Source of the DNA: Siphonodentalium dalli
Taxonomy: Eukaryota; Mollusca; Scaphopoda; Gadilida; Siphonodentaliidae
DNA: 64,000 nucleotides
Reading direction: 5' to 3'
Assembly: GCA_032622095.1 (NCBI GenBank)
Contig: CP136067.1
Location: 120,439,030 to 120,503,029, forward strand
Within the stretch, counting starts at the first letter, position 1, and every line of letters begins with the position of its first letter. Shown here in pieces: positions 885 through 37,855 of this stretch. The notes under the pieces are model-generated. The model ran no database searches. It had not been told where the DNA came from and saw nothing but the letters and a program-made list of their open reading frames with translations. A program made the translations under genes and the position numbers.

Positions 885-1264
885 CCCTTTACCCAACAGA
901 ACGGCCCTGTGCCAATGCATTATCTTATATATGCGAGTCGACCATAGGTCGCCTCGCATATATAAGAGAATGCATTGGCTTAACACATTAATAATTATAA
1001 AATTGTTAAAGAATGTAAGAAAAAATGGTAAAAAGATTTTTTTTAGGCCAATGCATTCTCTTATATATGCGAGGCGACCTATGGTCGACTCGCATATATA
1101 AGAGAATGCATTGGCACAGGGCATAACTGTAACTATCCCAATGTGGTCAAGGAGCCGTTTCCAATGATATCCATATTTGTATGGTTCTATTGAGACAGAC
1201 CGAAGATATTTTAGGCTGTTGAAGCTTTATTTGGCCGGTTTTGGCCGGTTTGTTGGGTAAAGGG
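885..1264. mobile_element. Double-hairpin TTAA MITE, family T1 (copy 1)
   Basis: The termini are CCCTTTACCCAACA (885) and its complement TGTTGGGTAAAGGG (1251-1264), flanked by TTAA at 881-884 and 1265-1268. Inside are two hairpins (about 914-984 and 1048-1117), each with arms of the type CCAATGCATTCTCTTATATA. They are separated by an AT-rich spacer and are reverse complements of each other, so the core is a palindrome made of two palindromes. The right third is unique sequence containing 'gagacagaccgaagata'. Nearly identical copies lie at 20212-20604, 21003-21386 and 37464-37855. Confidence 0.85.
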
Positions 1265-1268
1265 TTAA

Positions 1269-1671
1269 ACAAATGCCTTGCTCATTTATATCGATATATG
1301 TTACCGGCTATCCACATCAGAGGGTTTCACATCACTTTAACTTGGGCAACACCGGGTAAACCTGCTAGTGATTTGATATACATGTACGTTGCCGGCTTTT
1401 GACCTATTTCACATTTCACTTTCTGCGGTTCCCATGCATGCACATTTCCATTCATCACGTCAGAACTAAAGTGTTCTATCTCCATATTTTCAATTTTGTG
1501 GGAAATCGAGTTTAAAGTTTTGACGCCCCCAGTTCACAAGTTCTCATTCTGTTTTGGAAGAGTGTAAAAATACTATTATATGACAAGTTTCGAGTCAAAA
1601 CATATTATATGTTGGGTTTAATCCCAAAAAAAACAATTTGCATAAAATTTTCAGCTTTTTTTTTTGTGCTA
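1269..1671. other. No gene seen; possible truncated T6 end
   Basis: No convincing coding sequence. Positions 1326-1340 (tttcacatcactttaa) match the right terminus of the T6 repeat family (19847-20177, 44673-45039, 46449-46811), so a truncated T6 copy may end at the TTAA at 1337. The remainder is unassigned. Confidence 0.35.
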
Positions 1672-1673
1672 TA

Positions 1674-3155
1674 CCGTACCGGCCGGTGGATAAATCGCAT
1701 CGTTGGATAATTCGCATTGAATTTTGAAGCTTAAAATGTTGCCCTTTGGCTCTTTCTATTGTATATGTCGCACCTATTTCAGTGGCTTGTAAGGGAACAT
1801 CAAAATGACAGATTGACCTGGATTTAGAGTTATTTTAAGAGCAGGGGAAGCATTTAAAAAAAATAGAATTTATCACAGACGTAAAAATGAACGAACATTC
1901 CACCAATGCTTCAGGTATTCCCAATGTGATTTGGGGGAATTCCCAAGCAGGGGAGATAACATTGGTTCATTTTCATTAGGAGTGTGTGGGAACATGGATT
2001 ATAAAACTTATTATTTTGACCTGAATGATGTTTGGACTAACTCTGGGTGGTTGAGAGTAAAATCAATGTATTAATTAACATTTATTCATCATCAGAATGC
2101 AGCTTTGCCGCGATTTGCTCGTTTGTCTCTACGCATGGCAAAAATCAGTCCCTGATTATTTTCTCGCTAACACCAAACTCTCGTTCTGCGAGCCGATTAC
2201 CATGTTTATTTGCGAATTTTATCACTTTCAACTTGTATGAACTTTCGTAACTTAGACGTTTCCTTTTGATGCCACATTTATCCATTTTGAATTCGAAGAA
2301 AACTGATAGGTATAATGAAGCATGATGTCGTTTGAATAGTTTTAAGGTATGAGGAAAGACACAAAATATCATATCATTTATAGGAATATAAAACTGAGAC
2401 TCGGCTTACTGTTGTTTTAGGATAATGGCCTCGTTAATTTAGTTGTCGCCTGATTGTCACGAAGCATGAATGAAAACGCTTTGGGCTAATAGTGATGCAA
2501 TGTACTCTTCAGTATTAAGTGTCAACTATACTCAACGTGGGGATTAAATGTTTGCGTACAGCATAAAATAATGTTTAGGTAATATAAACAGGAGTTCGCG
2601 GCTTCGCACATAAGCCTCATTAAAATATGAGAACACGCTGTCCAGACATGCATTTAGAGTCAGGGCTTTTATTATGCTCATTCCCAGGCTTTAAATAAAC
2701 ATTCCGATGTGACGTCATCTGCCAGAAGTTTGCAGACATCAAAGGGATCATACCGCAGTCATTGAACGTGGGTCACTCATGCACGTGTTACACAGTCAGG
2801 TCAAGGACGCCCACTGTTTGTGAATTTGCTGCTGTTTGCGGTTGAATTCTTAGATATTAATACATATAATACGATATATATGTTTTAAATGTCGGACAGG
2901 GAATAAAATAAACACAAAGTGCATATGAGGATGGGGTATTTATTTATTTTTTGTATACCGAATTGTATTATTTTATCGCGTTGCAGTTAGTTTGCGTCGG
3001 CATTTTGTCCCGTTGTTTACCTGTGATCGCAGTTGATTCCTCAAAATTCGTCTGAAAATATGCCCCTCATTGACTTACCGATCTATAAGTCGCAGGAGGA
3101 TTTTAGTAGGGCAAATTGGATTAAAAAGATGCAACTTATACACCGGCCGGTACGG
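1674..3155 (-). mobile_element. pogo/Tigger-like DNA transposon (degenerate)
   Basis: Perfect 15-bp inverted repeats CCGTACCGGCCGGTG (1674-1688) and CACCGGCCGGTACGG (3141-3155) are bordered by TA on both sides (1672-1673, 3156-3157), the Tc1/mariner target site. The termini continue with imperfect 'ATAARTYGCATC'-type sequence, a style seen at pogo/Tigger ends. The interior contains a short remnant of a DNA-binding domain on the minus strand (next entry). At 1482 bp with no long ORF it is a dead or internally deleted copy. Confidence 0.8.
2145..2285 (-). pseudogene. N-terminal HTH remnant of a Tigger/Brinker-type transposase
   Basis: From the ATG at 2285 the minus strand reads a basic start followed by RLSYESSYKLKVIKFANKHG and AEREFGVSEKIIRD, then a stop. 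The 'SY..SYKLKVI.FA..HGN..A.R.FGVSEK..RDW' pattern is the BrkDBD/pogo-type helix-turn-helix found at the start of Tigger transposases. The tryptophan expected after RD falls at the stop, and nothing recognisable follows. Its position inside a TA-flanked element supports transposase origin over a host exon. Confidence 0.6.
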
Positions 3156-3702
3156 TAGTGGTTTTTGTGTTTTTCAATCATATAAACGTACAAAAATCCC
3201 AAATCACGACATTTTCTTTTAACCGAATAATTATCCTAGAAATAAGATATTCACACCTAGGTGTGAGAAAACATTATTTCCAACTAGTCACTTCACTGGC
3301 ACTCTGCCAATTTCGGGTTCCATTGCTTTCTATTGAAGGTCAGATAACATTTTAGCACTGAAATGTATTTAATCACGTGGTACAAAATAAATAGATTCAT
3401 TGGTCCAGAGTGGAGATAGAACAATATAGCACTGTCAAAAAAGTGATTTTTTGAGATGGAACATATTTACAGAGCCTATCATTCAAATTTGGTATGCGTT
3501 AGACACAATATCTGGTGATTTTCGGACAGGAAATCCTGTGCCGAATCGAAAGATACCAATATCTCATTTTCCCGCCAAAATGGAATTCTGATGTGACGCA
3601 TTGTCAATTTTGTCCAACTTAAAATTTATCCATTTAATATTTTTGTGCAGGTTTCTTTATATTTTGTTTGGGTCGTGAGATAGTCACAGCTAAGAAACTC
3701 AC

Positions 3703-3796
3703 CAGAGAAGTGTTGAAATATTCGGATATAACTGCTGAATCTGTGTACCGTCAACCACTGTGCTACTTCACTTGCCGATGACGTAACTTGCAATGG
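3703..3796 (-). CDS. TFCP2: TFCP2-like exon 11 (start of SAM-like domain)
   Basis: The 94-bp exon between TTTCAG and G|GTGAGTTT encodes [20 protein letters not shown] followed by FQHFSG. It aligns with the 'EAQQWLxxxRFSxFxxxFxxFSG' start of the SAM-like oligomerisation domain of LSF proteins. It ends in phase 1, so at least one more coding exon is required. I did not find it between here and position 1. Confidence 0.85.
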
Positions 3797-6700
3797 CTGA
3801 AAGTTAAATTCTTGTTGAATGTCTTTGTTTAACACTTTCATGACACGGCCTGTACTGTTGCAGCATTAAATATCCTGGGCTAGTGTATTCTCTTATATAT
3901 GCAAGTCTCCCATAGGGAGCCTTTCTATAATGAACGTATTCTCCACCCATTTACTAAAGTATACATTGATGGTCTATTATTCATCTGGAGGGGTTTTCAG
4001 GAAAAAGAACAGATATTGCAAGAACAGATGGAGTCCTATTTATTTATTGGAGGGAAATGATCAGGCTATTTAAAGCACCTCAAGGAGTTCTCAATGGCAA
4101 TATCAAGTTATTGGAATTTTGAATCTTAACTAAAAAACACAAGTTCTACGAATGACAATGTATTGGTATATCACCTATAATCATACCCATTTCTTGAGAT
4201 GTCCAAATTTTGCTCATTACAGTATTTACCAGAATATTTATGCCAAGTGCTGCATTAGGCATTTTATTTTTTATTACTTGGTTCATGGATTGTTTTGGCT
4301 AAAAGGTAGAGGAGGTGGGAGGGGAAAAAAATAAAGGTAGAGGAGGTGGGAGGGGAAAAAAATAAAGGTAGGGGAGGTGGGAGGGGAAAAAAATAAAAAT
4401 AAAATCTGTATAATTATTTTTAAAATTTAAATTGTCAAAAAATAGGGTTAGGAGAAATAAAATACTTGCTGTATAATAATCTCCTCATCTAAAACAAGCC
4501 ACCATATCACCTATAGCTATGGTTTGCCCTTGTCCACTTGTAGAGGCAAATATTTTTTTTTTATTTGGATGTGTCTTTAAAGCAAGATACTGATAGATGA
4601 AAAATATCGCCAAAATCAAAGTCTATCATGTTGTTGACATTCAATACCATAATGATCGCCAGGAGGCTTTGCTGTTCAACTGATGTTGAATATTGTATGC
4701 AAACTTACACTTTAAAAAAAAAAAAATTATGTCAGCATTAATATTCCCATTGGCAGAAATAAAAACAACCAAAAACTAAAATTTTATTATTTTTGACAAA
4801 CAGCTATTTTTTGGGTAGGGAAATCCGTAAACCAAGTAATAAAAAATAAAATGCCTTACAACTAATGTTTTCTTGTGTTTTAAAACCAAGAGATTACTTT
4901 CAGATGACTTAAGTGCTGCCAAAACTGTTGAATTTTAAAAATTAATTTAAGACGAAAAAAATGCAGCGCACCGCAACTGATCATGATCAAGGCTAGTTGT
5001 ATTTTAGAGTTATTGTTCCTTGCTTAAAACACAACACAGGCTTTCCAATTACACTAATGTCTGCAAACAATGGCTTCTATTTTTCATGTTCTTCTAGATT
5101 ATACTGGTTTAACAAACTTTATATAATTTTTCAGCTGTACAGACGACGAGTGGCTTCCGTATATTTAACTAACATACCGGTACCCCGATTACATATTACC
5201 TGTAGATGAGATGAGGGTGAGGTGGGTGAATCTTTGATGGTCGATGATGACACCAGGGATAGGACGTCGACACAATCCTGGAGTCGCAGCGCCGGACTGG
5301 ATGATATACTTGATTCAGCACTAATTGGAGATCTGTTGATATAAAAATAATTTCTCCCATTCAATTATATAACCCTTTCATAACGTGAGCGGCGCTTGTG
5401 TAGCATTAAAGATCCTGTGCCAGTGCATTCTCTTATATATGCGAGGCTCCCTTTATATATAAGATAATGCACTGACTTGCACAGCTCAAAGTAAATATCG
5501 TTAGGTCAATATATTCTCTTATATATGTGAGGCTCCCTATAGGAAACTCGTATATATAAGAGAATGCATTGGGTTTTCGCAAAATTTCAGAAAGATTCAG
5601 TCACGGAAGGGTTAAGTCAAGCTGCAAAACAGAGTTCAGTCCCCTCGCTACGCTATTTCTGACCGCTGCCGGCATGTGTATTTTCTTAATTAAATCTAAC
5701 ATTTTTTATTGAAGCGTTTTGTCAGTTGCAATTCATTCTGGCTTGATCTAGACCATGGTTCGCGCTGCCACTTGCCAAATTTGCCAATGGCAAAAATAAT
5801 TCACATTTGGCAAAAAATATTTTCATTTGGCAAGTCAATTTTTAATTCCTCAAGCAATTTGAAAAATACTGGTCAATCAATACCATTAATTTCAGGAAAC
5901 TCTTACAACATAATTATATTAGTGGTGTTTTTATAAGGTTTAGGAAAAGTGACGTAATGGCCGTAACTCCGCACCAAAGTAGGCGGACCTGGTCGGTTTT
6001 CAAACTCAATCAAGATATTGTGGAGCAAGTCTTATGTTCCGAATATCAACAAAATCAGTTGATATTTGTTCAAGTTATCACACTATTGCCATCAGTAGAT
6101 GCCTGCAGCCCGCGAATGGACATCGCCGAACAAAAGTTCAAGATTTGGAAAAACTCAACCAATAAAATTAAATACTAACGCTGCATTCAGTGAAAATTTT
6201 GATGAACTGTGGGAAACTGATGAGGTGTATGTCCCTGGCGTCCCGGGGTCACCGTTAGCATAGCTCGTAACAGGCACGGGAGACATAGGTGGTTCACAGA
6301 TAGGAACCTAAAAATAGACACAGCAAAACGAACATTAAAGTTATTGCATAGCTCATTGGTTCATAGTTATTTGGTGTAGAAATACAAGATAGTTACGAAA
6401 CGATTTAATAGTAGACAAAATACGCATGATGCAGATTTATAAAACCAATCAACGATTAAAACGTGGTCATTGAGTTCATTTTCAAAGCCAAAATATTTTG
6501 AAATTTTTGCTTAAATATTGGAAAAGAGTGGAGACTTGGATTCAAATTGATTTCGGAAGATTAACATTAGAACTGTCATTACAAGTAGAAATTTATTGAT
6601 AAATATTGAGTTTGAAATCGATGGTCTGTTTCCTGTTTTAAAGCATGGCCACCGACCAGTCCTCTCAATGATTTTTTTGTTCATCATCCATTTTATCAGT

Positions 6701-9700
6701 TGTTGAACAATTTAACCCGGAATTGTGTACCAGATTTTAAAAATTTACTCGATTGATTGGCATTATAATTTTAGGAATCGGTTCAGGTTTATATATATAT
6801 ATTTGTTTTACTCATTTTAATAACATGCTCCTGTGGCCTTGATTGCCTTTATAATTGACCTAGATCAACCCTGTGTGTTACTCAGATACTCACTTCTGCA
6901 AGAACTGTACATTCATATGATGGCTGATATTTTCCCTGGAAATATAAATGAACAAATAAGCAGGAATGTAGCTAGAAGGTCTCGTTGGGCGGGGGGGTTC
7001 ACAAACCAGACCAAACTCCCATAATTTGATAATTTTAACTGGTACTCAAACTTTCCATCTGTTGGAACTTTCAACCAGATACTAGGGCTTCACGGTATCC
7101 ACCTTCAATATACCGACTACGATATGTATAGGATATTCCCCGAGCTGTCGGGCATTCGGAGAAATAATTATTTGATTATTTGGACGAATGCCCGACAGCG
7201 AGGGTAATATCTGGCTTAATCCTCAGTATTTAAAGAATAACAAGACGAAATTTAATTTTACCTATATTTTTACTTTGAAATTTGTCAATGACATTACAAT
7301 GTATGATATATTTAATTAAAGGTAAATGAAAAATTTAACGAAAAATGTGAACATGACCATTAAACAATTTCCGAGTCTGTCAGACAAATAAAGATTTGTA
7401 CGCAAATTCAGTTGCCACTTTAAATAGTGATCTGGAGATTTGGAATTAAAATCGTCATTAAAAATGTGTCAATCGACCCCCCCCCCCATTACATAGTTAT
7501 GTGTTATCAGCATGGCGTTCATTTTATAAGCGAAATAAACATCACAAGCACCCGGAGGTAAATGACAATCCAGCCGATGATCCAACTGATGTTTCCGTTA
7601 ATATTGGAATAAAAAATATATATAAAATTCTTTCGAGGAGTCGTTTTCGTATTGTACTGATTATCGGATTTATTTCCATGAATTCGAAGTTGGATTTACA
7701 AGGAGTTCTTGACCAACGTAAGTTATCGAATGAGGTTTATTTACTATAAATATATAGTAGTCATTACCTGTATAAAACGATCTTCAATTTCAGCATTTTG
7801 ACATAAAATTCTTAACATTTTATTAAAATTCATGTAATCAACGTAACTAATCCACTTAAGTTATAGTGTGGTGTACCCAACATTACAAACTGATTTGGAT
7901 TATCAACATTTAAATATTTAACATTTACCAGAAAATTATAGCGTGCGAGTGATTCCGTGTTATAAGAAGGCTCCACATTCGTAAGTTTTTCATTATTAGA
8001 ACAAGTCTCAAATACAATGAAAATGTGTCGTTAAAGACACGGGCGGCGTTGGCGGTGGGTATGCTGTTAAAATATTCACATCCGTCAAAAAACGCCATAA
8101 ATAGTGAAATATAGACAGACTTTGTTCTTATAGCAATCAGAAATATGACATAAACAGTATGTTATTGTCGATTTTTCCCCTTGAGTATGTAAACAAAAGC
8201 AAAACACGTTACGTTTCCTGGCTTTTGTTTAGATCCGGATATGGTAAACATAAAGAGCGTTATTTATTACTGTTTTCCTGATATGGAAATAATAAAGAGC
8301 GTTTATATCATTGTTCTGGTGGAAGTGACGATTATAAAATAATTTACCCCCCCCCCAATAAGTGAATTCTTTAACTATTTCTAGGCTACAGTCTCTATAC
8401 TTGAATGTGGGAAGATTTTTCGACCATTTCTTCGTGAAAATCATTAATTGTTTTTTTTTTGTATTGACTTGAAGTTTCCAAGCTTCTGCATAATCGACAA
8501 AGGCGAGGAGAGCCCCACTGATATACCGGCTTCGTGTGCTCTGAAAATAAATGTTAATATAACATATATTTTCAGCTGTTTTAAATATTTCGCACACAAG
8601 TGAGAGAAAAACGCTCTTTATTCATACCATACCAGGAATGTATTAATAAGGAACGCTCTTTATTGTTCCATGCCAAGGAAGTTGGGGAACCGAACTTTCT
8701 CAATTCAATCTGTTGAACTAGGCTCTATGTGGCATACAAATTTAAGGCCTTATACGAATATGACAAACGCGAGCATAATTTAGACCTTCAAACCACTTAT
8801 TCCCATAATCACACTGATAACTTAAATTATAAATATTAAATATTTGTTTGTTCGCAACCAAATTACGACACTGACTTAACATATGTGGCGTTGAGCAATG
8901 CATTTGCTATGCATATTGTCCAAACTCACACAAGAGCAGACTTCAATTTTAGCTTGTACATTGTTTTTAATTAGTTGTGGAACTCAGGGGACTATTTGTT
9001 AACAGCATCAGTTTGCCCTACCATCATCAGAGCAATTCAGCAGGACCCAACCGCATCATAGCAGATAGGATAGGATAGGATAATTTTATTTACAATACAC
9101 ATATGAATAGTACAATAAATTAACATATAACTAGGTAATAATTCAGTATATTGCTGGACCACTTGACCGGGGGTGATATATATTTTTCTAGTCCGAATTG
9201 TCTAACATTGATGTAAAATTGTTGTTATTACATTAAACAAATTCCACCCACCGTCTTTCTTGGTATCCCTATGATCATTATAATCACTTAACACTGTTCA
9301 GTTTCTTATTTGATTGATTGATTGGTCACACCAATTTTACATTCCGGTGTGTCAGCAAGTGGAGAACACATCAAACAATTACTTGCAATTGTTATGATAA
9401 TACCTGGGGAATATTTTAATATTCCAGTTATTGTTAAAATAATGCACACTTATTGTTTAAATAATCCACAGCTATTGTTACCAGTGGGCAATCAGCTGGA
9501 TATTGTGCAAGGGAGAACAATAGAAAATATGGCGACTGTGGATTAATTGATGAAATACCGCGGTATGACTAAATACCATCAAGAATAATTTCCAAACATT
9601 TTGCTAGTCAAGATCCTTTGGAATATGCAGTACGCAATTTAATATTTGAGTGTGAATGTAGTGTCACGTCGACACACGCAAATAGGACAACGCAATGCAT

Positions 9701-12700
9701 TTCACTTGTGATCATAACTAATTTGAGCTGCATATATGAGACGACTATAAACACACACCCTTCATTATACAACTCGTTGACACTCCCTTTGTTGTGAATG
9801 CTTTTAGCGCTTTCTTCAGTTTTGCTCTGGGCGTCTTGTTGGGTTGGTTATACCTTCTCGTATCGCTGGTTATCGTTTCATCTCGCTGGTTCTCTTTCAT
9901 TACTTACAAGCACGCGTTATTGCCTCAGAATATATTAAATTTGTTGACATTTGCTGTTGTAAAACCGACTAAAAGAAGAAAATATAGCGTGCCGCGATAT
10001 ACCAACTATTCAAGTAATCCAATACCGACTACAAGGTATTAAAAATAAAACCGCGGTATGACTAAATACCGAAAAACCGTGAAGCCCTACCAGACACCCA
10101 CCTAAGGTACGTTGGAAAATTATGATATTTCCTGGTTACGGCATAAAATTTCTTATATTTTTATTAACTGTATTTCCCCAAACCATGAGATTATATGGAG
10201 GTTGGGGGAGAATGGGGTTTAAGGCCTCAAATCTGGAGACTCACAGGCAAAACTGGAGATTATACAGGCCTGATGCCAAAGGGTTAATTGTGACTCACAA
10301 TCTAACGCCTAAAAGAATATTATCAATCAGAACATCAGGCGTGCTAGCATCACCAAATTCATCCTCGAGGGACCTCATGCTGCATGGCTTCATCGTCTTT
10401 TCAGTCCAAAAAAGCTTTGAATATCGGTTGGGTTGATGCTGTTTTGGACCGAGTGCTGTCCCGTTACTCTTCTATAATGGGCTTTAGTTCAAAATACATA
10501 CTATATTAAGGCATGGAGCTGGGGCATTCACATGAACTCCTGCATGTGATTAATCATCAGACATGTCCGTCATTAATCTGACTTCAAAATGATATATCAT
10601 TTACCGTGATATAAAAAGGTAAAGTGGTGATACGATCGATTAATGTAATGTTTACATACATTTTTCTGATAGCCCGACAAATGAAAATTCTCTGGAAAAC
10701 AATGCTTTGTTTCCTTATAAATCCTGTCACGCTTGGGAAAGGCAGGCCATTTGACCTATCCAAAGACATGCAAGCATGATAACTCCTGCCCACGATTCGG
10801 GGCATAAAATCCGTTATAGAAGAGTAACGGGATAGGACTCGGTCCAAAACAGCATCAACACAAATGATATCCTAAGCTGTTTTGTACCGAGAAGACTTGG
10901 TCTAGTATTCTGTGTGTTTTAAAAAAACAAACAAAACAATTCATAAGATTGGGCACCTCGATTATACATTGTGTCAATTTGTGGATATAGAGAAAATAAA
11001 CTACAAAGAACAGAAACTTTCTAAAGAAGTTTCTAAAGAAATTAAAAAAAAATAATTCGATATTAAAGCAGGCCTAAGCAGAATGAGGTCCCCAGAGGGT
11101 GAATTTGGTGATGATAGCCTGCTGTGAGGGTAGTGTCAATAAATTCACCCTCAGGGGACCTCATTCTGCTGTTCAGCACCATATTTTGAAGCCTGCATAG
11201 CATACCTTATCAGACTCAGATCTCTTTTCCAGCTTGTCTCGGTCCGTTTTGTTTTTTCTGTCAGCACCTTTTGGCTTAAAAAGAGAAAAAGAAATAAAGT
11301 CAATTACCAAATAATTAATATATATATGGAATGGACTCAGTTTGAGCATTGAATGTTTCAAATGTAACTGCCTCAGTGAGCACGAACAAATTGAAATGGT
11401 CATGTATCGATCAGAATGGCACATTTGGATGTCCCTCAATTCAGATCAAGCTTGAAAATCGGTCAAAATCGGTCCCGATTTTCATCAATGTCGGCATTCG
11501 AACCCATAGCAACCTCATCTAGTCAAGATTATGATGAATTTATCCACGACCTATCCACCTCGGATATGGCGACATCATTAAAAAGGAAACCCTTTCACTG
11601 AGAGTTGAGAAGCATAAAACAAAAGCTTTAAAATATCTGACAGCCCGCAAAGGTGGCTACACTGCTGTATCTCAAAACAGTTAGAGAATATGGGTCTTAT
11701 TTAACAAAGTCTCTACACCTAATTATTCTACACATACACCATATAAAACGACCCCCCAAACCGCCAATGATATAATGAAAATATGCCTCTTAAAAGCTGG
11801 TTAAAAATGATATGCACAGTAGACAAATTTTGGACTTACCTTAAATACTTTTACTTGACAAGATGCACAGTTGATAAGTTTTGGTTTGCCATCACCATGG
11901 CTGTAGGTCTCCACTTGTATTCGAAATGGAACCCCTTTCTCGCCACCATGTTTCTTGGCAGTGAATTCGGTGCTGATGCAGTTGACCTTTGCATGCACTC
12001 CCGCTTCTTTGGATGGATCCCAAAAGAACTCAGCTGTGTTGACCTTCTCAAGGTCATGCCTCACATCCCAAATTCCGTATGAACCAGGAATATCTGGAAG
12101 AAAAAAAAGAAGACAATAAACACTACGAAGTGATGGAGAATTGAATTACTGTTTAACCCTTTGCAGTCCATAAACATGTGGATTGCATTTAATTATTGCT
12201 TGATATAACTTCATTTTAATTCTTATTTAACCCAAGACCTTCGAAGCGGGTTTATGTAAAATAAAAAAGATTCATGTGCGAAAAGTTTGTAAAACAACTA
12301 TCATCAACAAGTACATTTCAAAAGAAAACGACAATGTTCAAATTGTATTTATTAATAACTCTCAAAAAATGAGATTTTGCATATGTAAACATTATGTAAA
12401 CATTATGTAAACATTATGTAAACATTATGTAAACATTATGTAAACATTATGTAAACATTATGTAAACATTATGTAAACATTATGTAAACATTATGTAAAC
12501 ATTATGTAAACATTACAGGTTAGAGTACATTACCGATCAATGTCCAATTGGTCAAATAATATTCCAAAGTTTAACAAAAACTTGACATTAAACATTGAAA
12601 AAAGTCAAAGCATTGAAAAATAGTTTTAAATTAATATGTAGACTAAAATATCGAAATTATTTTATAAGCTATAGTGCGATAACTTTAACAGTTTTGTTAA

Positions 12701-15700: not shown

Positions 15701-18700
15701 CGATTCCTTTGATCGCATGCAACACACACCTATTGAACAGCACGCACTGACCATTACGGGTTAAAAAACACTGTTGTATAGCCTTGTATGCTGACATCTC
15801 GGACAATCATTGTTAACTCAACCCTTACTTTGCTGCATTTTATTAGTTAATTATTGAGTAAACTTAACCCTTTGAGTGCCAGGTCGATTTTTGTAGCAAC
15901 CCATATACCCTGTGCCAATGCATTCTCTTATATATGCGAGTCGACCATAGGGGCGCAACTTTTTGTGCTCTACTTTTCAATTCCAGGCATGCAATGGCAT
16001 GCAAGAGAAATTGTGCACCTCAAAAACGAAGGCCTGTCAATTGACTACTTATCGACTAGTGACCATCGACTAGTAAATTCCCTAATAATTTCAACACTAT
16101 TAGTATCTCTGTCAATTATATCTTGGACACTGAACTATTAGTTATATCCTTCATGAATGCTCTGCATTCATAGAAGAATTAAACAAAAATCGAAAAAAAA
16201 TACCTACGGTACGTTTATTCATTCACCGGCAAATGCCTAGAGATTCTCTCCCAATTCCTGATTCCCAATAACCAACCGGACACCGGCCACCTGATCAGCC
16301 ATTTCTATAAATTCAATGGCTGGGACATTTCATGTTTGAATGAAAATGTAACCATGACTAGCAAGACTAGTTTGATTAAAACCAGAGATAGCCAATATAG
16401 AAATGGAATACTTCGTAATAAACAATTAAATTCAATACCATGTGCGGATGCTTTGAAAATATTTTAGGGAGCCTCGCATATATAAGAGAATACATTGGCC
16501 TAACAATAATTACCTTGACCTTGTAAGCCAGTGCATTCTTATATATGCGAGGCTCCCTATGGGAGACTCGCATATATAAGAGAATGCACTGGCACAGGGT
16601 CTTTAAGGCTGCAGCAGCACAGCTCCCATCATGAAAGGGTTAAGGTACATGGTATATTCAGAAAATTTGAAATGATGCAGCAATTTGAAAAGATTGAATA
16701 CATTACATGTACATATTTCTCTTGTGTGTCGATATCTCCAATTCTCTTCAACTGTATTTCATATGATTGCCCTGTAAGAAAAACAATTAAAAACTAGAGA
16801 TGGGACTGTCACAGTGTCACTAAGGAGTAAGTGCAGTGCAAATTGACAAAATTGATAGTAGCCATAATAAAATTATTATCTTCTTTTTTTTTAAACATAG
16901 TATAAAAGCTCAGAAAAATTATACATGTTGCTATAAATTTTAAGTAAAAAAGAGGGATAACTCCACTAAAAAAGTCAGACGGAGCTCATAATCGCAGGTT
17001 CCCATAATACTAAATATATGTGCCAAGATTTTTAAAAATTGACAGAAAAATGTAGGAATACAAGCTTGGACAAGTTGCATACACACGACACACAAAATTT
17101 AATTTTTGAAAAACTTGCAATAATGAATATAAAAACAAAGTTTATCTATTTCTATGACAGGCTTTAATATATTATTGGACATTTACCCACTGCTAGTGGA
17201 TTGGGTCCCTTTAATGATTCAACTTTCATCTCTTTGTACTTGGCGTTCAGTGGTTGTGAGCATTAGATGGTTTATAAACAGGCCCTGCCAATACCTAACA
17301 CGCAGGCCTTAAAATGCATAAAATTTTGCGAGATTCAAAATATAGCATTTCTACAGAGATTCAACTGATTTATTGAGAATCAAATTGAGAACAATGATTC
17401 CGATTCTCGTCATATTGTAAGCCCTGAAAATGGGGCTGTTTGCAGGGCCTAGGCCTGTAGGCCTAGGCCTGTAGGCCCCGTCAAAATGCAAAGCATGGAT
17501 GAGGTACCTTGATTGAGGTATGTCAGTGTCTCTTCATTAATCTTCACGGCCGGTGACGTAGCTGCACACAGAATGTACTGGAACCTGGATGAAAACAAAA
17601 TAGGACAATAAAAACATGTTTGTTTGTTTTCTCCATGTTGTCTCGCCAGGCTTTGTGGCAGTTTTGTCATAGCCCAACTTCTTATTAAATTTTTCTATGA
17701 TAAACGGCCAATTTGAATGAGAAACAGTCTCATTTCATGTGATTGAGCAAATCCCATAGCAGGAATTACTCAGAAGCTTAATCACCAACAATAAAGCAAT
17801 ATTTTAAGAATAATTTTGTCACATAATATGTGTTTTTACATTTAATCATATATTAAGTTATAATACATATATTATATTAAGAGAATGCATTGGCACGGGG
17901 TTTTCTCAAAATTTCAGGAAGTTCCACCCATGAAAGGGTTAAGGCGCTTTAACCCCGAGATTCGACGGGAGCTGCTCTGGTGCAGATTAAATATCATGTG
18001 CCAGTGCATTCTCTTATATATATATATATCGAGTCTCCCATAGGGAGCCTCACATATATAAGAGAATGCCAGTCCTTCGAATTTGGAAAACGTAGGTGCG
18101 CGATATATCGCTCGGAGCTTTTGGGATTTGCGTGCGCCTTTTTTGAGGGAGCACAATTCAAATTAACATCGATGAAATGATTACTGAATAAAGACAAACA
18201 CAAGTATAATGATACACACGTATAATTCCAAGTGTGGCAACAGAAACAGAAATAAAAACATGTTTATATTATACAATAGTCCACATGATAATAACATCAA
18301 CAATCCCGGTGAATCTGATCACGGTAATTAGTCGACTTCCGCCTCTGAGAGCGCATGCTCATCAGACTCGATTAAAGCTTCAAACTCGGAAGTGGAATCC
18401 GAATCGCTACCGGAATCAGATTGCCAGGAAGCAAACTACTTTTAAAATTTTGATTAGTATATAGCTAGTCAATTATTGTAATTGAATAGCATCCATTCCG
18501 AATTGAATAGCTATTTTTATGGGCCTAATATCTCGGTGAATTAAAAGTAATAATGTCACACCTGTGAATTACGTCCCAGTGAGCACAAGCGACAGCTTGT
18601 CAGGGACTAATTTGTCACATATTATCTTTAGAATTAGCGCTTTTAAGATTGCACACTTTTGCCCTTTTAGGCAGTGTCACCATCACTATCCGACATGAAT

Positions 18701-21700
18701 GATGATACAGTATAAACCCTAATCTAATATTCAAATGAATCGGCGAATCCCGCATGCCGAAACATCAAACGAGGCCGCCAATGAATTGACACGCTTTTTG
18801 CGGGAACTCGCATGTGCAGCAGTTGTGATGAGGTGTCACCCCAATCATTGAGTGCGAAAGACGCCGCTTTGATCTTTGTCACCAGGTTCGTAATCAACGT
18901 CATCCCTGCTGAGAAAGATACATGGTGAATAGTCTTGTCGGCGTTTAACCATTGGTGTGTTGTTTGTTAAAATCTCGTACACTGGTTGCAATTTCCGAGG
19001 CGCGCATTTGAAATTTTCGGCGTACGCATTTAATAACTCGCTGGTTTTTAGATCCGCGCGCGCCAGGGCGCGCAACCGCAATTGCGCGCCTCAAAATCGA
19101 AGGACTGGAATGCACTAGCTTACAAGGTCAAGTTAAATATTGTTAGGCCGATGCATTCTCATATATATGCGAGGCTCCCTTTGGGAGACTCACATATATA
19201 AGAGAATGCATTGACACAGGGTTTTCGCAAAAGTTCAGGAAGTTCCAGTCATGAAAGGGTTAAGGCAATTTAAACTGGAGGTTCATGACAGGAGCTGTGC
19301 TGATGAAGCATTAAAGATCCTGTGTCAGTGCATTATCTTAAATATGCAAGTGTCTCCCACAGGGAGCCTCACATATATAAGAGAATGCACTGGCATACAA
19401 GGCCAAGATAAATATTGTTAGGCCAATGTATTCTCTTATATATGTGAGGTTCCCTCACATATATACCGTAAGATAATGCATTGTACACGGTTTTCACACA
19501 ATTTCATGAAGCTGCCGTCATGGAAGGGTTAAATAATGAAATAACACTTACTCCATTTCCTGCTTAAACACGGGTAATGCCATCAGAGCTTCACTGTAAT
19601 AAAAATAAAACAGTAAATTTTTGTAGTATTATGTAGTATTATGTATTAATATGTAGAATTATGTAGTATTATGTAGTATTTTGTAGTATCAACAATACCT
19701 TTTCAGCATAGATTTTTTCTGGGTGATTTTTCAGTTATCAATATGTTTGCATTGCAACGGCGACTGATAGATGCTGTTCCTTGATGGCAGCAGTGTAATC
19801 TGGCTATAAAACGGGGAACTGCTAATTGGTGGTAGTATGTCTTTAAAGACATATTATGGCCTTGTTCAGTTGTGTGAAACAGATTAGTTAGTACTACATG
19901 TCAACTGGAGGAATGTCGCCAAACAAACCGACCATTCTACTCCATAGAAGACATCGTCTGAACTACGCTCAATTTTAAATATTTACTCATCGATTCAGGA
20001 TGCAACTATCGGCAATAAACTAATAAAAACAATTATGCAATCAAGAGCAACAGCACATAGTAAATATATAACAATGACAGTGTGCATTGTCAATTTGGAT
20101 AATATATTTGTAAAAATAACTACTTTGAGCAAGATTATTCTCCATGTCTATTTGACATCGGATTATTTTACATCACTTTAAATGTCTTCTTGAACAGTGC
20201 CAGTCTTATAACCCTTTACCCAACAGAACGGCCCTGTGACAATGCATTCTCTTATATATGCGAGTCGACCATAGGTCGCCTCGCATATATAAGAGAATGC
20301 ATTGGCTCAACACATTAAAAATTATAAAATTGTTAAAGAATGTAAGAAAAAATGGTAAAAAGTGTTAAAAAAAAGAGTTTTTTTAAGCCAATGCATTCTC
20401 TTATATATGCGAGGCGACCTATGGTCGACTCGCATATATAAGAGAATGCATTGGCACAGGGCATAACTGTAACTATCACAATGTGGTCAAGGAGCCGGTT
20501 CCAATGATATCCATATTTGTATGGTTATATTGAGACAGACCGAAGATATTTTAGGCTGTTGAAGCTTTATTTGGGCGGTTTTGGCCGGTTTGTTGAGTAA
20601 AGGGTTAATATATTATTTTGTCTCAGCACATTGAGCAGAAAGCCATATTTTTATAAACACAATACAAGAGGTTGCACATCATCGGGTGCTAGCATACCAC
20701 AATGATGCCAAATTGAAAGATGGAAATGACCGAATTTAATTTTAAATAAATGAGATATCTGCAAAAATGGACAAAATACCAAGATTTCCAGATAACCAAA
20801 GAAGAATAACTCTAGAATGGAAACACAAATGCCATGTTGAAAGCAGTCATAATGGTGAACATCCATGTACTAAATTTCAAATTCAGATCCGATGACCCAT
20901 GTCTGAGATATACATGTATGTCCCAAAGGACAGAAAATCACTATTTCACGATGAACAAAGAATGATAACTGTAGAACAGAAATCGTGAACAATGTCTTTT
21001 AACCCTTTACCCAACAAAACGGCCAAAACCGTCCAAATAAAGCTTCAACAGCCTAAAATATCTTCGGTCTGTCTCAATAGAACCATACAAATATGGATAT
21101 CATTGGAACCGGCTCTTTGGCCACATTGTGATAGTTACAGTTATGCCCTGTGCCAATGCATTCTCTTATATATGCGAGTCGACCACAGGTCGCCTCGCAT
21201 ATATAAGAGAATGCATTGGCCTAAAAAAAATCTTACTTTTTACCATTTTTTCTTACATTCTTTAACAATTTTATAATTTTTAATGTGTTAAGCCAATGCA
21301 TTCTCTTATATATGCGAGGCGACCTATGGTCGACTCGCATATATAAGAGAATGCATTGGCACAGGGCCCTTCTGTTGGGTAAAGGGTTAAAAGTACTCCG
21401 ATGCCGAAATTCCATACCAATTTCATTCAGATCAGATATATGCCAGACAGACGAACTGCTAGAAAGACGGACAAAGTAAATCCATCAGACCACTATTTAT
21501 AAATGGGTCTGTAGTTAAAGGTAGTCAATCCTATTCGATGGTCCCCATATCATCAGATTCCAACAACAGCAACATTTTTATTGCCCAAAAATAATGCTAA
21601 CCATTGTCAACTACATGTATAGTATAAAATTGTGCAAAACGTGTTATTTATCAACATGTTGTTAGACGAAATTTGGCCTTATTATCAACACAAAGCCTCT

Positions 21701-26072: not shown

Positions 26073-26080
26073 GAAACTAT

Positions 26081-28335: not shown

Positions 28336-28357
28336 GGGGGGGGGGGGGGGGGGGGGG
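28336..28357 (+). repeat. Homopolymer run of 22 G
   Basis: An uninterrupted G tract, prone to length change and to assembly or sequencing error. Confidence 0.9.
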
Positions 28358-31261: not shown

Positions 31262-32085
31262 ATAAGATAAGATAAGATAAGATAAGTTTATTGGCTCTTG
31301 AATCATGAAACATTGTAACAGAGTAAGAATAGGTAACATATGTATATGTGTTATATGAGGTTGTAAATAGAATCTAGATGTGACTGTAGAGTATAAATGG
31401 AATCAGTAATAAAATAAGTATAAGCAGATTCAGTGTGACATGTCACAGAGTGGGACAAGTTTCATGAGATCTAGAGCCAACAGGGTTGCACAAAAAGCTG
31501 GCATAGCCAATTTGATTCCATTGTGGACCCTGCTGACTTCAGATCACATGACTCCTCGACCACACCATGAAAATTGCTTCCAACTATATATACTATGTAA
31601 ATGACAAAAATGATCAATCAAAGGGGGATTTGCTTAATTCAACCTTATTTCAAAAGTATTTATAAATGCTTTCATCGCTTTGTTTGATATATATCCAGAT
31701 TCTTTCAACAATGTCGGCTCTCCATTGTTTCTCATTACATGAAGGATCTAAATATTTTACAACATTATTCCAGCATTTAATGCCGGAATACATAAAACTC
31801 TTCGAACCAAAAGGTCCAACAGAGGGGATATTATATTTGAATTTTCCAGATCTTGTGTCATGGGAAGGATTTGCTAAGGTAAACATAGAATTGAGGTAAT
31901 TTGGGCCATTATTATCATAGATCTTTTTCATGAGTATCAATTTTCTTTGAATTATCCTATTCTCTACTGGGAACATCTTGAGATGTTGAAAGTGATCTAA
32001 ATTTATATGACTGAAACTTTCTAGACCAAGAATAAATCTAACCATCCTATTTTGGGAGGTCTGAAGTTTTCCTTTAGTTTTGACT
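31262..32085 (-). mobile_element. 5'-truncated LINE with (GATAA)n tail
   Basis: Minus-strand 3' end 'caataaacttatc' then (TTATC)n at 31262-31286. The body extends to about 32085 and carries the RT C-terminus (next entry). It is a different family from the (AGGAT)n LINE, judged by tail and protein. Confidence 0.75.
31650..32075 (-). pseudogene. C-terminus of a LINE reverse transcriptase
   Basis: An open frame of over 130 codons reads LQTSQNRMVRFILGLESF, then LKMFPVENRIIQRKLILMKK, YLNSMFTLANPSHDTRSG and SKSFMYSGIKCWNNVVKYL. The 'Q.RMVRFI', 'L.M.PVENRI', 'H.TR', 'F.YSGIK.WN' series is the standard C-terminal region of CR1/RTE-class ORF2 proteins. It is truncated upstream, so inactive, but it has no internal stop. 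Confidence 0.78.
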
Positions 32086-32332
32086 ATTGGTATTCAGGTC
32101 AGTCCACTCAAGTTGGGAGAATTCAACAATAGACCACATGTGTTAGAGATAGCTGGTAAGCTAATACATAATATTCCATATATAGAATTCATGAATATTA
32201 AAAAGCTCAACAAAAAGGGCACCGACCGCAACTCTCCTATATATAAAGCTGAACTGAAAGTGATATAATATCATGCAGCGAATATATATATATACCCCGC
32301 ATGCGTGATCCACGAGTGTCAGTGCATGCTAT

Positions 32333-32395
32333 CAGGGAGCCTCGCATATATAAGAGAATGCATTGGCACAGGGTTTTCGAAAAATATTTTATAGA
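32333..32395. mobile_element. T3-type half hairpin fragment
   Basis: 'cagggagcctcgcatatata' then 'agagaatgcattggcacagg' and 'gttttcgaaaaat' match the right-hand part of T3 elements. The remainder is absent. Confidence 0.6.
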
Positions 32396-32446
32396 ATCAA
32401 ATTGTTCAAAATTTTGATTATCTCTTATAGCCAAAATGACAAATGT

Positions 32447-32900
32447 GACCCGCCATATCAAATCCAGTCGGAAGGCGGGATTTTTTTTACCCTGTGCCAA
32501 TGCATTCTCTTATATATGCGAGTCGACCATAGGTCGCCTCGCATATATAAGAGAATGCATTAATTGGCCTAACAATTTTTTACAATTTTAATAATTTGTT
32601 CTTGTATTCTTTAACAATTTCACCCATACAGAGCCCCAGACAAACATGAGCAGACGACACTCTTCTAGGTGCTTCTATATATGTGTGGGGCTCCCTGCAG
32701 GGTAATGGGTGTTGTTTTTATTTTATGTCCTAAAAATATATTGTAAGAAACATTTATTTAAAAAACATGATAAAAAATTGTTAGGCCAATGCATTCTCTT
32801 ATATATGCGAGGCGACCTATGGTCGACTCGCATATAAAGAGAATGCATTGGCACAGGGTAAAAAAATCCCGACTTACGACTGGATTTGATATGGCGGGTC
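32447..32900. mobile_element. Hairpin-module MITE with different termini (GACCCGCC family)
   Basis: The termini GACCCGCCATATCAAATCCA and its complement are flanked by the 8-bp direct repeat ACAAATGT (32439-32446 and 32901-32908), suggesting a hAT-type element. Because that site is partly self-complementary, shorter duplications (AAAT) are also possible. Inside is the same hairpin pair as in T1 (about 32493-32567 and 32783-32856), starting at CCCTGTGCC, plus a spacer with 'ccccagacaaacatgagcag' not seen in T1. Confidence 0.8.
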
Positions 32901-33114
32901 ACAAATGTGTACGTAATTCTGTCTCTGATATTTTGAAGTTATGGACGTTACTTCAGCAAAATTTAGTGCGTAAAAACTATGATGTTAGTGTAAAATAATC
33001 AGGACTCGTACGATGACTTGTAATCGATATTTCTTAACTGGTACTCAGGAGTTGTGCACCCCTCTCTGTTAACTGTATTTAGGATTCACGGGGTTATGAG
33101 TGACATCCTTCCCC

Positions 33115-33640
33115 ATAGAACATGCCATGCGTGAATCTCTATGCCCGTAGAGATCACATTCCATGCACCATGCATGTACAATACCTTGGAACTTTTTGAA
33201 GTTTTGACAGGGAACCTTATAAAGTCGAATCAATAACGCGGGCAATATTATTTCTTAGTTATTATCTGTTCCATTTTCCATGAATTAATGTACCTACTAA
33301 AAATTGCATGCTTTTATGTGACTTGTGTGAGCCGATATCGCAATAAACATTGAATTAATTATCCAGGAGAAATGCCATAATTGTAAGCGACGCAAAGCAT
33401 AATCGCTCACAATTTCCCTTAAATCGTGAAATTCGAGTTGGGACCTTCACCTGCAGTGAAGTACATTATGAAGGAATAGGTATTAACTAAGAAATATATT
33501 CCCCGCATTATTTTTTCGACTTTATAAGGTTCCCTGTCAAAACTTCAAAAAGTTCCCAGGTTTTGTATATATATATACTGGTGGAATATGATCGAGCTGC
33601 GAGCGTTAACCAAAGTAGAGATTCATGGCATGATCAAATC
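33115..33640. mobile_element. Inverted-repeat element with arms of about 80 bp
   Basis: Arms at 33183-33265 ('ccttggaactttttgaagtt ... ttcttagtta') and 33479-33562 are inverted copies. Outside them 'catgccatgcgtgaatctct' (33122) and 'gtagagattcatggcatg' (33616) continue the inversion. A related right half lies at 44139-44330. Confidence 0.65.
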
Positions 33641-34025
33641 CTTCCCCTGCAGGGGGCTTTGGTTTTTCGCTTATTACTTTACCGTTGCCATGGTTGTTGA
33701 CCAAGAGGAGGGGCACCATATATTCCTTGGTAGAACGTATACATATGGCAGAACACAAACACGCGCGGGTATATGTCCTCCTTTGTAGAATATATATAAT
33801 CAACTGGTATGGCATAACTTCCGGGCAGTGGCACGTGACATTCTCCACATGCAGTACACGAACGTGCCTTGAAGGTGATTTGTATATATACGCACCGTTC
33901 CATTCAGTTGGGACATCATGTCCCAGCAATCGTGATTAAGAATTCATTTAGAGTTCGTTATCATGAGTGAAGGGAAATGCGATGAAATAAACTTTAACAC
34001 TTTCTTTATTAAATTGATTATTTAA

Positions 34026-34609
34026 AGGGGTACTGTACGCCATTTTCATAAAATTTCCGGTTACAACAACGATCTAATATCGATAATATATAGAAACATA
34101 AGTAATTTGAGTCAAAGATGTATTCTGTAAACGCTCAGGTTAATAGGCTATCTTAAAATTTAATAATTTAAAAGTTAATAATTTGATATAAATTGAATTT
34201 ATGACTGGAGCCATAAAATGGCGTCAATTAAATTACGAATTACCGTAATCAAAAATAGTAATTGAGGGATACTGGATTTTTAAAACCGATCGCACACACG
34301 ATTGCTTAAAATATTATGATGATACGGTGAGAACACTCAAGCCACTCACTGACTAGCGACGATACAATAACTTAAATGATTATATGGGACTAGTATGCAT
34401 ATAATATAACTTTTATTTGATTCATTTGGTTGAAAACTTTACAAAAATTACTCGACAACGACAATTTGTATTTTTGCATTCCGGTAAATTTGTCATCCGT
34501 AACATGACTTCGTACTCAACAGACTTTCAAATAATGGAAAAATTGTTACCTTATTCTCCGACTCGGAGACTATAGAAACCAACAACAACATTTGGCGTAC
34601 AGTACCCCT
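34026..34609. mobile_element. TTAA element, family T5
   Basis: Inverted termini AGGGGTACTGTACGCCA (34026-34042) and TGGCGTACAGTACCCCT (34593-34609) with TTAA at 34022-34025 and 34610-34613. Non-coding, 584 bp. Copies: 46255-47195 and the fragment at 1-25. Confidence 0.85.
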
Positions 34610-34613
34610 TTAA

Positions 34614-35040
34614 TTCAGTTATAAAACTACGCAATTGAATTTAATGGTCGTTTTTTCATCTGGGTGATGTTCAGGTAATAATAACAAAAGACAGACCAAA
34701 TATACAAGATACAAGTGAAGAATGATCCATATTCATTGGCACATGGTGCATATCCATAAAGCATGGCCATGCATACAATTGGAATATGATATGTCCTTGG
34801 TTCGGGAGACTTCTCTGCGCGTATACATGTATATAGTTCTGTATAATGAATGTCGGTGATGCCATTCTGAATGAGTTCTCTTGGATAATTGTTGTTTTCC
34901 ATAGAATGTTTGTAGTTCAGACAGTCTGTGCATGGTATACATCGTTGTGTTTCTTTACTGGCAATTGCGCAAACCCGTTGCGCGAGACAATATGTATATT
35001 GCGTTTTGTGTGTGACTGCATGCATGGTGGCACGACCGGA
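34614..35040. other. No gene recognised
   Basis: The overlapping ORFs on both strands share no recognisable family and lack splice-site support. Confidence 0.3.
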
Positions 35041-35058
35041 AGTCCAGCTATAAGCGTG

Positions 35059-35299
35059 ATCACTGAGTTGTGGCCGTACTGGATTCATCCAGCCCCGTTC
35101 CGTGGTTTCCGAGATTCATCCAGCCCGCGATTCCGTGGTTTTAGTGTATCAAAGTTCTGAAGTAGCATTTCCATATAATTATGGAGCTTTTGAATATAGG
35201 GAAATACTATAATCCAGAACTTTCACATGTAGCACTAAAACCACGGAACCGGACCTGCATGCATGGTGGATCCAATATGACCGCGAGTTATAGTGACTG
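35059..35299. repeat. Palindromic element with CCGCGGT-type ends
   Basis: The left arm 'gagttgtggccgtactggat ... ccgttccgtggttt' and right arm 'aaaccacggaaccgg ... atccaatatgaccgcgagtt' are imperfect inverted copies around 'tggagcttttgaatatag'. A related left arm is at 31086-31180 ('gtcgcggccatgttggatcc', 'catatatggagcttttg'). Confidence 0.55.
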
Positions 35300-35605
35300 G
35301 GGCGTATTGGTGTGTATATATCTGTCAATTTACAGTATATATCCGTGTTAAGAATGTTTTTGTCAGCCCAAACAGGCATATATAGAAACGGATTTTTTTC
35401 TCTGCTCCGTTCCGAAGTGAAATTGATTGATGGATGCAGCGAATTAACAATTGTTGGGAACTAGTCTAGTGTTTCTTCCGAATCCTCCCATAAACAATCA
35501 TCGAAATATCGTGTCCAAGTGATATGTAGACTGATATTTTTTTCGGAAATGAAATATTCCGGTATGTTTTATACATATAGTTGGGATTCGAGATACCCTA
35601 TTACT

Positions 35606-36214
35606 AAAGGCCCGTAAAGACGGCGACGCGAGCGATCCATGCGAGTAATGCGGAAATTCCGTCATCATACGTTGGGGTCGATCCTCTCGATCGTTTTGCG
35701 TTTTCGAATGGCAACTTTGCAGCAAGTCATCACATATACAGTATATATATGTTGTCGTTTTCCACAAGGGCCTGTGGGCTCATTAATTGGTCCAACACAA
35801 GTCGAGTCAATATCAATGAAATAGTCTTGTGAATGTCATGTCCATCCATATCCCATACGTTCTGTGTGTGTTTCTGTATGATGCAGAGTCTTGTTATATA
35901 ATACTTCATACTTTATATTTCCGCTAAAAATGTTGGATTTGAAGTAGCCATTCTGTTTACTTTGAATGAACTTGGAAATGTTGATGGATTCCACATCCGA
36001 TTACTTCGTCTACCTCCGCGTAACTGAAAAAGCCGAAAACACTGGAGTAAACGCTCTGATCGCGTCGCTCAATTAGTACAAATCCCATATCCTTGCGACT
36101 GACGCTCTGATCGCGTCGCTCGATGCCGTATGAATACCTCAATGATATTAAGTTTGCCTAATTCAGCGTCGATGCTGAAGTAGCATCGCTCGCGTCGCCG
36201 TCTGAATAACCCTT
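35606..36214. mobile_element. TIR element with GACGGCGACGCGAGCGAT ends
   Basis: The left end 'aaggcccgtaaagacggcga' with 'cgcgagcgat' and the right end 'atcgctcgcgtcgccgtctg' with 'aataaccctt' are inverted repeats. GCGTCGC motifs recur internally at 36058-36125 ('gctctgatcgcgtcgctc' twice). Target duplication and superfamily are unresolved. Confidence 0.6.
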
Positions 36215-36434
36215 AAGTTGGCATAGATTGGGGCCATTTTCGTCCCCATATAGCGGTTCCTTTGATTTTCAATTTTTGTCATTGAAAATGAAATTATTGT
36301 TCTCCAAAACTATGTCCACACAGTTAAAACTTTTGTATATCTATGGCATGAGGGAATAATTCAACGGACCAGTTGTGCACTTCGGGTATGCTTCTTCACG
36401 AAATTTTCAAAACAAATCCAATACTTTAATTTAC

Positions 36435-36566
36435 TTGCTTCCTGTACAACACCATCGTCACATTCATTATAGCAGCTGTCTCCACAATGGGAGGGGCTCC
36501 CACATGTTCCATAACTTGTGCACAAATTTCCCTCAACACCGCCCTTCTGTACGTAATTTGCAACTG
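36435..36566 (-). CDS. Unidentified host-gene exon candidate
   Basis: A 132-bp open segment lies between ACATAG and a CAA|GTAAAT donor on the minus strand. It encodes QLQITYRRAVLREICAQVME then HVGAPPIVETAAIMNVTMVL and YRKQ. The hydrophobic and charged pattern looks like real helical protein rather than transposon debris, and both splice sites fit with complete codons at each side. I do not recognise the family, and no partner exon was found nearby. Confidence 0.45.
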
Positions 36567-36613
36567 CTATGTAACATTGTATATTTTGGGTTACAATAAA
36601 TAAGTTCAGCCAT

Positions 36614-36869
36614 GCAAGCCTTGAAATAGGGTGTCTGTCATTTGCAGAATGAGGTCCCCAGAGGGTGAATTTAGTGATGCTACCCCGCATATCGGGCTAG
36701 CATCACCAAATTCACCATCTGAGAACCTCATTCTGCTGAGGTGTAAGCAGAATGAGGTCCCCAGAGGGTGAATTTGGTGATGCTAGCCCGCTATGCGGGG
36801 TAGCATCACTAAATTCACCCTCTTGGGACCTCATTCTGCAAATGACAGACACCCTATTTCAAGGCTTGC
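36614..36869. mobile_element. H2 double-hairpin MITE, copy C (compact, intact)
   Basis: Outer inverted repeats 'gcaagccttgaaatagggtg' and complement are flanked by AGCCAT (36608-36613 and 36870-36875). Inside are two adjacent hairpins with GCAGAATGAGGTCCCCAGAG arms (36643-36737 and 36749-36840) separated by about 11 bp. This is the cleanest example of the architecture and nearly the whole 256 bp is self-complementary at two levels. Confidence 0.82.
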
Positions 36870-37463
36870 AGCCATGCTGTGTTTGAATGACCTAATCAAG
36901 TCGTCCAACCATTGTATTGGCAATTAGCTGTAACCATCGTATTAGAACATGTTTCGATTCACTCCTAGATAATTGGAGATAAAATCATTCACATCAACCA
37001 AACTGCCACTACAATCACCCAAATCAGATAAACGAACCATACAATTGATGAAGCTTCTTTGAGTATAGATGTCGCTCATTGAAGCCGGGTGGACATGTGA
37101 TACGGGTACATTGGTTCTTGTCGCCCACCTGTATGAAACACCCTTTGTCTCACCTGGCGGGACAGGTAACTAATGCTATTGATGTCGGGTGTTTGGATGG
37201 TACTATTTTATATGTTTCTTCCTTCAGGCGAATTCCCAGGAGTTTTATTAAACGAAATTAGCACAGTTATTTCGCTCAAACTGTGCGCTTTTGTGAAACA
37301 GAGCATTCGATCGTATAGTTTCAGTTTAAATAATCTGTCACTGATGTTATGAATTCTTTTTTTTTCTGTGAAAGTTTCTATAGTTCAGTGTCGATAATAG
37401 AGTCCACTTGGAGATGACGAAGTGGACCACAATATAAGCCCGATCAAAACTTTTGCCATCTAG

Positions 37464-37855
37464 CCCTTTACCCAACAAACCGGCCAAAAACGGCCAAATA
37501 AAGCTGCAACAGCCTAAATTATCTTGGGTCTGTCTCAATAAAACCATACCAATATGGATATCACTGGAACCGGCTCATCGACTACATTGTGATGGTTACA
37601 GTTATGCCCTGTGCCAATGCATTCTCTTATATATGCGAGTCGACCACAGGTCGCCTCGCATATATAAGAGAATGCATTGGCCTAAAAAGATATTTTTTTA
37701 ACACTTTTTTACCATTTTTTCTTACATTCTTTAACAATTTTATAATTTTTAATGTGTTAAGCCAATGCATTCTCTTATATATGCGAGGCGACCTATGGTC
37801 GACTCGCATATATAAGAGAATGCATTGGCACAGGGCCGTTCTGTTTGGTAAAGGG
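37464..37855. mobile_element. Double-hairpin MITE, family T1 (copy 4)
   Basis: Same orientation as copy 3. Termini CCCTTTACCCAACA and TTTGGTAAAGGG are kept, but the flanks are CTAG/CTGA rather than TTAA, so the target site has decayed. Hairpins lie at about 37613-37681 and 37762-37829. It abuts the gag-like fragment that follows. Confidence 0.8.

Follow-up and report, generated by a model that had tools for sequence, protein, structure and literature searches.

How does one hairpin come to lie inside transposons whose ends and target duplications differ? The question is raised by a 64,000-nucleotide stretch of the genome of the scaphopod Siphonodentalium dalli (GenBank contig CP136067.1, positions 120,439,030 to 120,503,029; hereafter the window), which lies on contig C7 of a nine-contig, 2.23-Gb assembly. 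An earlier note on this DNA had reported a hairpin present more than 20 times, and this was borne out, since the 20-mer CCAATGCATTCTCTTATATA has 33 matches in the window at up to three mismatches compared with 0.03 in dinucleotide shuffles. The hairpin forms part of a longer unit, here called the core, which appears to be the shared part of several families of non-autonomous DNA transposons (miniature inverted-repeat transposable elements, MITEs). At least four terminal sets carry the core: T1, T2 and T3, which have TTAA, start with CCCTTT and are piggyBac-like, and an element with GTGACCCGCC ends. The tips of the T1/T2/T3 set are CCCTTTACCCAACA (T1), CCCTTTGAGTGCCA and CCCTTTCATGA. The best explanation, which we hold tentatively, is that the core was once a separate element inserting at TA and now hitchhikes in other MITEs.

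The core is an inverted repeat in which each arm is itself a hairpin, with the borders CCCTGTGCC...GGCACAGGG. At most T3 left ends the shared part begins with CCTGTGCC instead of CCCTGTGCC, and both starts proposed in the earlier note were thus recovered. A full-length core is about 350-380 bp long and runs from CCCTGTG through a 69-nt hairpin, an AT-rich spacer and the hairpin in inverted form to CACAGGG. The window's four T1 copies have a core of 217-230 bp, with two 80-nt arms that are 98% complementary and are separated by 59-72 bp; by eye, the T1 spacer looks like a shortened full-length spacer. When the full-length core of locus L035 was folded as a single DNA strand, the predicted energy was -128 kcal/mol, against a shuffle mean of -32.6. 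Exact matches to CCAATGCATTCTCTTATATA in the whole assembly number 157,048 + 157,062 = 314,110 (reversed control, 0), and the exact 20-base core tip occurs 152,002 times. An exact 21-mer gave no match in viral and bacterial contigs, and a search of Rfam gave none. Two variants of this anatomy were observed. In a T3-ended element at L031:1020-1260 the spacer holds several copies of an AT-rich repeat of ~31 bp, of which other cores have about one, and this may be an ancestral long core. At L030:1597-1956 and 3074-3724 the T3 hairpin unit forms a tandem repeat with a period of 97 bp, inside a segment that is duplicated ~1.47 kb apart.

Two sets of loci were used. Loci L001-L008 and L029-L048 were picked by exact 20-mer matches near the start of contig C1, which biases family proportions; the overlapping or duplicate loci L003, L004, L005, L007 and L008 were removed before sample tips were counted and hairpin consensus sequences were made, and the duplicated segment within L030 is counted twice. 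The unselected set consists of the window and 20 regions of 10 kb at fixed places (L009-L028), 16 of which lack the hairpin at up to six mismatches, core density being very uneven. A search that allowed up to four mismatches gave 93 tips in the sampled loci, and the core border is constant across seven end types. The tips divide into 18 at T1 short ends, 17 at T1 long ends, 10 at T2, 16 at T3 right, 11 at T3 left, 12 at GTGACCCGCC ends, two at G4 (a relative of T3 left) and seven others, the last comprising four free ends beside TA (two in L011, one each in L045 and L046), two T1 inner arms and one T3-like flank. Genome-wide, exact tips follow GTTATG (the T1 long-arm junction) 38,884 times, TTTTTA (GTGACCCGCC type) 19,768 times and CATATA (T2 type) 13,655 times, together 72,307. 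These counts cover T1 long arms and GTGACCCGCC-type and T2-type ends, and the strings are short, so that some matches may belong to other contexts (the free core of L011, for example, has a TTTTTA junction).

The carriers that the earlier note had named are all present in the window: T1 in four copies, T3 as copies and remnants between 3829 and 19532, the GTGACCCGCC-ended element (previously described by the sequence GACCCGCC) and the T2 fusion. The fusion at 15864-15952 is real, but it is not a one-off. Indeed, the 10 T2 ends of the sample and the 13,655 exact T2-type junctions define a family of T2 ends with core, of which the window copy is a truncated member. In the unselected set the core follows directly on all seven T1 long arms and all three GTGACCCGCC arms found, but some T2-type ends lack it; a second core-less T2-type copy, besides that in the window, lies at L029:9644-9831. 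A degenerate pattern for the T1 long arm without core gave 607 matches compared with 245 in the reversed control, and the six of these 607 that were inspected were unrelated sequence. Facing T1 long-arm junctions were seen at G000:C1:7629271-7629512 and 7788009-7788281, and in some T1 elements the core thus seems to be flanked by two long arms. At G000:C1 ~842598-920842 T2-type core junctions follow each other at intervals of 11,174-11,176 bp, eight in a row, in a long tandem array whose unit holds the junction.

Target duplications separate the carriers into two kinds. T1 has TTAA on both sides in 14 of 16 paired copies, although the pairing pattern itself contains TTAA (up to two mismatches) and so favours it, and it missed the copy at 37460-37859, in which the TTAA has decayed. 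The tip CCCTTT fits the piggyBac pattern CC[C/T]T. The five two-ended copies of the GTGACCCGCC element have instead a W-rich 4-bp duplication, exact in four (AAAT, ATTT, ATTT, ATAT) and ATAT/AAAT in the fifth; none has TTAA, in disagreement with a piggyBac mode of insertion. That this element carries the core had been seen correctly, but the 8-bp duplication assigned to it did not hold up: the 8-mer is exact in just two of the five copies and 4 bp fits better. ACAAATGT can be read as AC + AAAT + GT, and with the terminus GTGACCC the duplication is 4 bp.

Further evidence came from 44 joined flank pairs, which revealed related empty sites with a single TTAA for two T1 copies: L009 is the counterpart of L047, and the window repeat 45035-44770 that of L019. 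For these two copies, T1 ends and core are one TTAA insertion unit. A third related-site alignment, of the T1 copy in L039 with L025, shows no clear TTAA; for one GTGACCCGCC copy the alignment with a related site leaves 2 nt ambiguous. A match in L002 was taken for a repeat beside the element rather than an empty site. The piggyBac domain PF13843 has at least 128 matches in the genome, a lower bound with 116 of 649 candidates scored. Among the matches listed all are above the curated cut-off, and many are without an internal stop, in open frames of about 500-720 residues. We infer that the transposase moving each carrier would be the one that recognises the carrier's outer ends, presumably a piggyBac-type enzyme for the TTAA carriers (T1, T2 and T3) and another enzyme for the GTGACCCGCC element.

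The idea that all carriers are a single TTAA family with diverged ends is therefore very improbable. T1, T2 and T3 do have TTAACCCTTT in common, but the GTGACCCGCC element, with its 4-bp duplication and no TTAA, contradicts it; the ends beyond CCCTTT are dissimilar by eye, yet the hairpins of T1, T2 and GTGACCCGCC share one consensus, and T2-type ends occur without the core. The earlier view of one core in carriers with different ends and duplications (TTAA as opposed to 4-bp W-rich) is upheld.

Where, then, did the core come from? According to the explanation that we prefer, the core would once have been a free MITE that inserted at TA with CCCTGTGCC ends. It would have inserted into other MITEs, the composites would then have been amplified recently, and the present spread would be due mainly to hitchhiking. 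Consistent with this, the dinucleotide at the junction is TA at 12 of 12 GTGACCCGCC ends, 10 of 10 T2 ends and both G4 ends, and exact tips with TA directly before them number 43,988 genome-wide. Moreover, free cores in unrelated flanks end at TA, on both sides at L011:6946-7305 and on the one kept side at L045:1030 and L046:255. Since the free core of L046 is closest (96.0%), among those compared, to the GTGACCCGCC core of the same locus, free and hosted cores share a subfamily; identities for L045, whose values include flanking sequence, were set aside.

Several observations weigh against such an origin. T1 junctions are GG (18 of 18) and TG (15 of 17), none being TA, and T3 junctions are AA (16 of 16) and GA (10 of 11), with TA at only one of 27 T3 ends; TA would have to have been lost there later, by drift or recombination. 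A pattern omitting the known hosts found 854 exact tips genome-wide, a figure that does not equal the number of free cores, the filter being estimated to pass about a tenth of random contexts. Among the 100 of these tips listed, 61 differ by no more than one letter from a known host 7-mer. Just eight of the 39 other contexts end in TA, so that non-TA contexts prevail among those seen. The exact search undercounts free tips, because three of the four known mismatch the 20-mer. About five or six independent events would account for all the TA cases, and TA, being palindromic, could belong to the core rather than be a duplication. In addition, no empty TA site was found for the core, an exact search for a core-less GTGACCCGCC palindrome with a gap of up to 14 gave no match, and no transposase is tied to the core's own ends, no search for an autonomous relative having been made.

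Comparison of the hairpins shows how recently the core has moved. T1, T2 and GTGACCCGCC elements have one and the same hairpin consensus, with a mean divergence of 1.0-1.4% among the intact copies of each, which points to recent passage of the core between ends. The T3 consensus differs from that of T1/T2/GACCCGCC at seven of 69 positions at the right end (16 copies) and at 11 at the left end (11 copies, many decayed), and T3 hairpin divergence is 9.6% and 15.2% in small samples (eight of 16 and four of 11 copies intact). The T3 ends at L031:902-1825, however, hold the young core type, and therefore the same ends hold different cores.

These data bear on a second possibility, nearly as likely as a TA-inserting origin, in which the core has been exchanged without any transposition of its own, through gap repair, gene conversion or template switching that copies it between MITE ends; a long palindromic core would be a substrate for recombination. 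The want of TA at T1 and almost all T3 junctions, its minority among exact tips in unusual contexts, the old and young core types behind T3 ends and the identical consensus across ends all fit such exchange, and a single-hairpin derivative (L047) and the shortened T1 spacers point to internal recombination or deletion. Recombination alone leaves unexplained the constant CCCTGTGCC border in different ends, and the TA that flanks the core on either side in the GTGACCCGCC element and in L011 also speaks against it. The earlier note had offered two options, insertion of a parasite into MITEs and repeated swapping of ends, and both remain. There is evidence for own borders with TA beside them in T2, in the GTGACCCGCC element and in three free copies; against a purely parasitic mode, TA is lacking at T1 and nearly all T3 junctions, and exact free tips look rare and are mostly not at TA. 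A stronger form of the first idea, which we consider rather unlikely, is that the core is hyperparasitic, a small palindromic element inserting at TA into non-autonomous transposons of different superfamilies and so making unrelated transposases (piggyBac-type and another) its carriers, with most of its copies hosted and few free.

It is also conceivable, but improbable, that the core is kept because it aids the transposition of any host, as a subterminal enhancer or pairing hairpin, so that its sharing would reflect selection among MITEs; such a role could go together with any of the other explanations. The same core lies behind three end sets in the 72,307 exact junctions, and a role for a shared internal region has been proposed for the coral elements discussed below (PMC2872659). 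A T.C stem mismatch is present in 39 of 40 distinct hairpins, these having been oriented so as to show it. The typed T3 reference hairpin and the common hairpin differ at six positions, which form three stem pairs; two of these, loop-stem pairs, are changed on both sides in 12 and 13 of 40 distinct hairpins, the third only twice. Other hairpin changes are nearly all one-sided, as in neutral decay, and a maintained hairpin structure was rejected. Clearly stronger conservation of the core than of the arms was likewise rejected: T1 arms diverge by 4.0% and the hairpin by 1.2% in a sample that had been picked through its hairpin matches and restricted to intact hairpins, but no clear difference is seen in unselected T1 copies. 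The core-less T2-type copies also speak against a selected core.

The author of the earlier note knew of no described family of this kind. The coral CMITEs of Acropora are, however, the closest kind found in the open-access literature, and in the account consulted they comprise TTAA MITE families with different ends, mostly starting CCCTTT, around one shared internal region of unknown origin (PMC2872659). As described there, the internal region has 75 bases and is more conserved than the ends; tandem arrays, piggyBac-like genes and a nested derivative, CMITE-IN, are present, and about 1,600 copies are estimated for A. millepora (PMC2872659). The likeness lies in an internal region common to TTAA MITE families with different ends, here T1, T2 and T3. 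Unlike the unrelated 75-base CMITE region, the shared part here is a double hairpin of ~220-380 bp, and there are also a non-TTAA carrier and free cores at TA; none of these three features appears in the CMITE text compared. Copies are also far more numerous here (152,002 exact tips against about 1,600). The CMITE internal sequence gave a best E of 0.15 in the 346 kb of window and loci searched, a fraction of the genome. In MER6, a SINE-derived domain was amplified within a Tc1/mariner MITE (PMC6887750). Foreign sequence inside a MITE, spread by host transposition, is common to both cases, but as far as that text goes MER6 has one host family and a retrotransposed insert, whereas here one insert lies in several end sets. 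With piggyBac-type MITEs the present elements share TTAA, CCCT tips and high copy number; they differ in that the core is common to families and one carrier is non-TTAA.

The text compared on CMITEs leaves open how MITE families with different ends came to share a core (PMC2872659). In the present assembly hosted and free cores are found together with T2-type hosts that lack the core, so that insertion and exchange can be set against each other directly. The findings suggest that one sequence exploits more than one transposition system, and they illustrate a way for selfish DNA to spread, as a passenger in several different transposons.

Table 1. Core carriers and related copies in the window
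Feature	Position	Strand	Remarks
T2-type palindromic MITE	555..769	.	215 bp, without core
T1 composite	881..1268	+	TTAA, CCCTTTACCCAACA ends; core 905-1121
T3 left end and half hairpin	3829..3922	+	truncated copy
T3 composite	5369..5615	+	diverged core
T2 left end joined to outer half of core	15864..15952	+	truncated T2 composite
T3 end with hairpin remnants	16465..16643	-	
T3 remnants	17870..18074	.	two ends with partial hairpins
Two neighbouring T3 copies	19109..19532	.	with hairpins
T1 composite	20208..20608	+	core 20232-20461
T1 composite	20999..21390	-	core 21146-21366
Outer half hairpin	32334..32373	-	T3-like flank GCACAGGGTTTTCG
GTGACCCGCC-ended element (= GACCCGCC element)	32445..32902	.	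AAAT/AAAT 4-bp duplication; full-length core inside
Full-length core, hairpin-spacer-hairpin	32490..32858	+	369 bp, TA on both outer sides; inside GTGACCCGCC-ended element
T1 composite	37460..37859	-	decayed TTAA; core 37607-37835

Other features of the window were noted in passing. An exon-like open reading frame at 11801-12145 (minus strand) matches the CP2 transcription factor family (E 6.9e-24), so that there may be a gene close to the modules or around them. A dispersed repeat is present at 19843-20181, 44669-45045 and 46445-46817 (73-87% identity) and served as the T1 insertion target in L019. Another palindromic MITE-like family (AGAATGAGGTCCCCAGAGGGTGAATT) occurs at 36613-36870 and 11075-11170, and a stretch related to it (~L046:200-240) adjoins the free core of that locus at TA.

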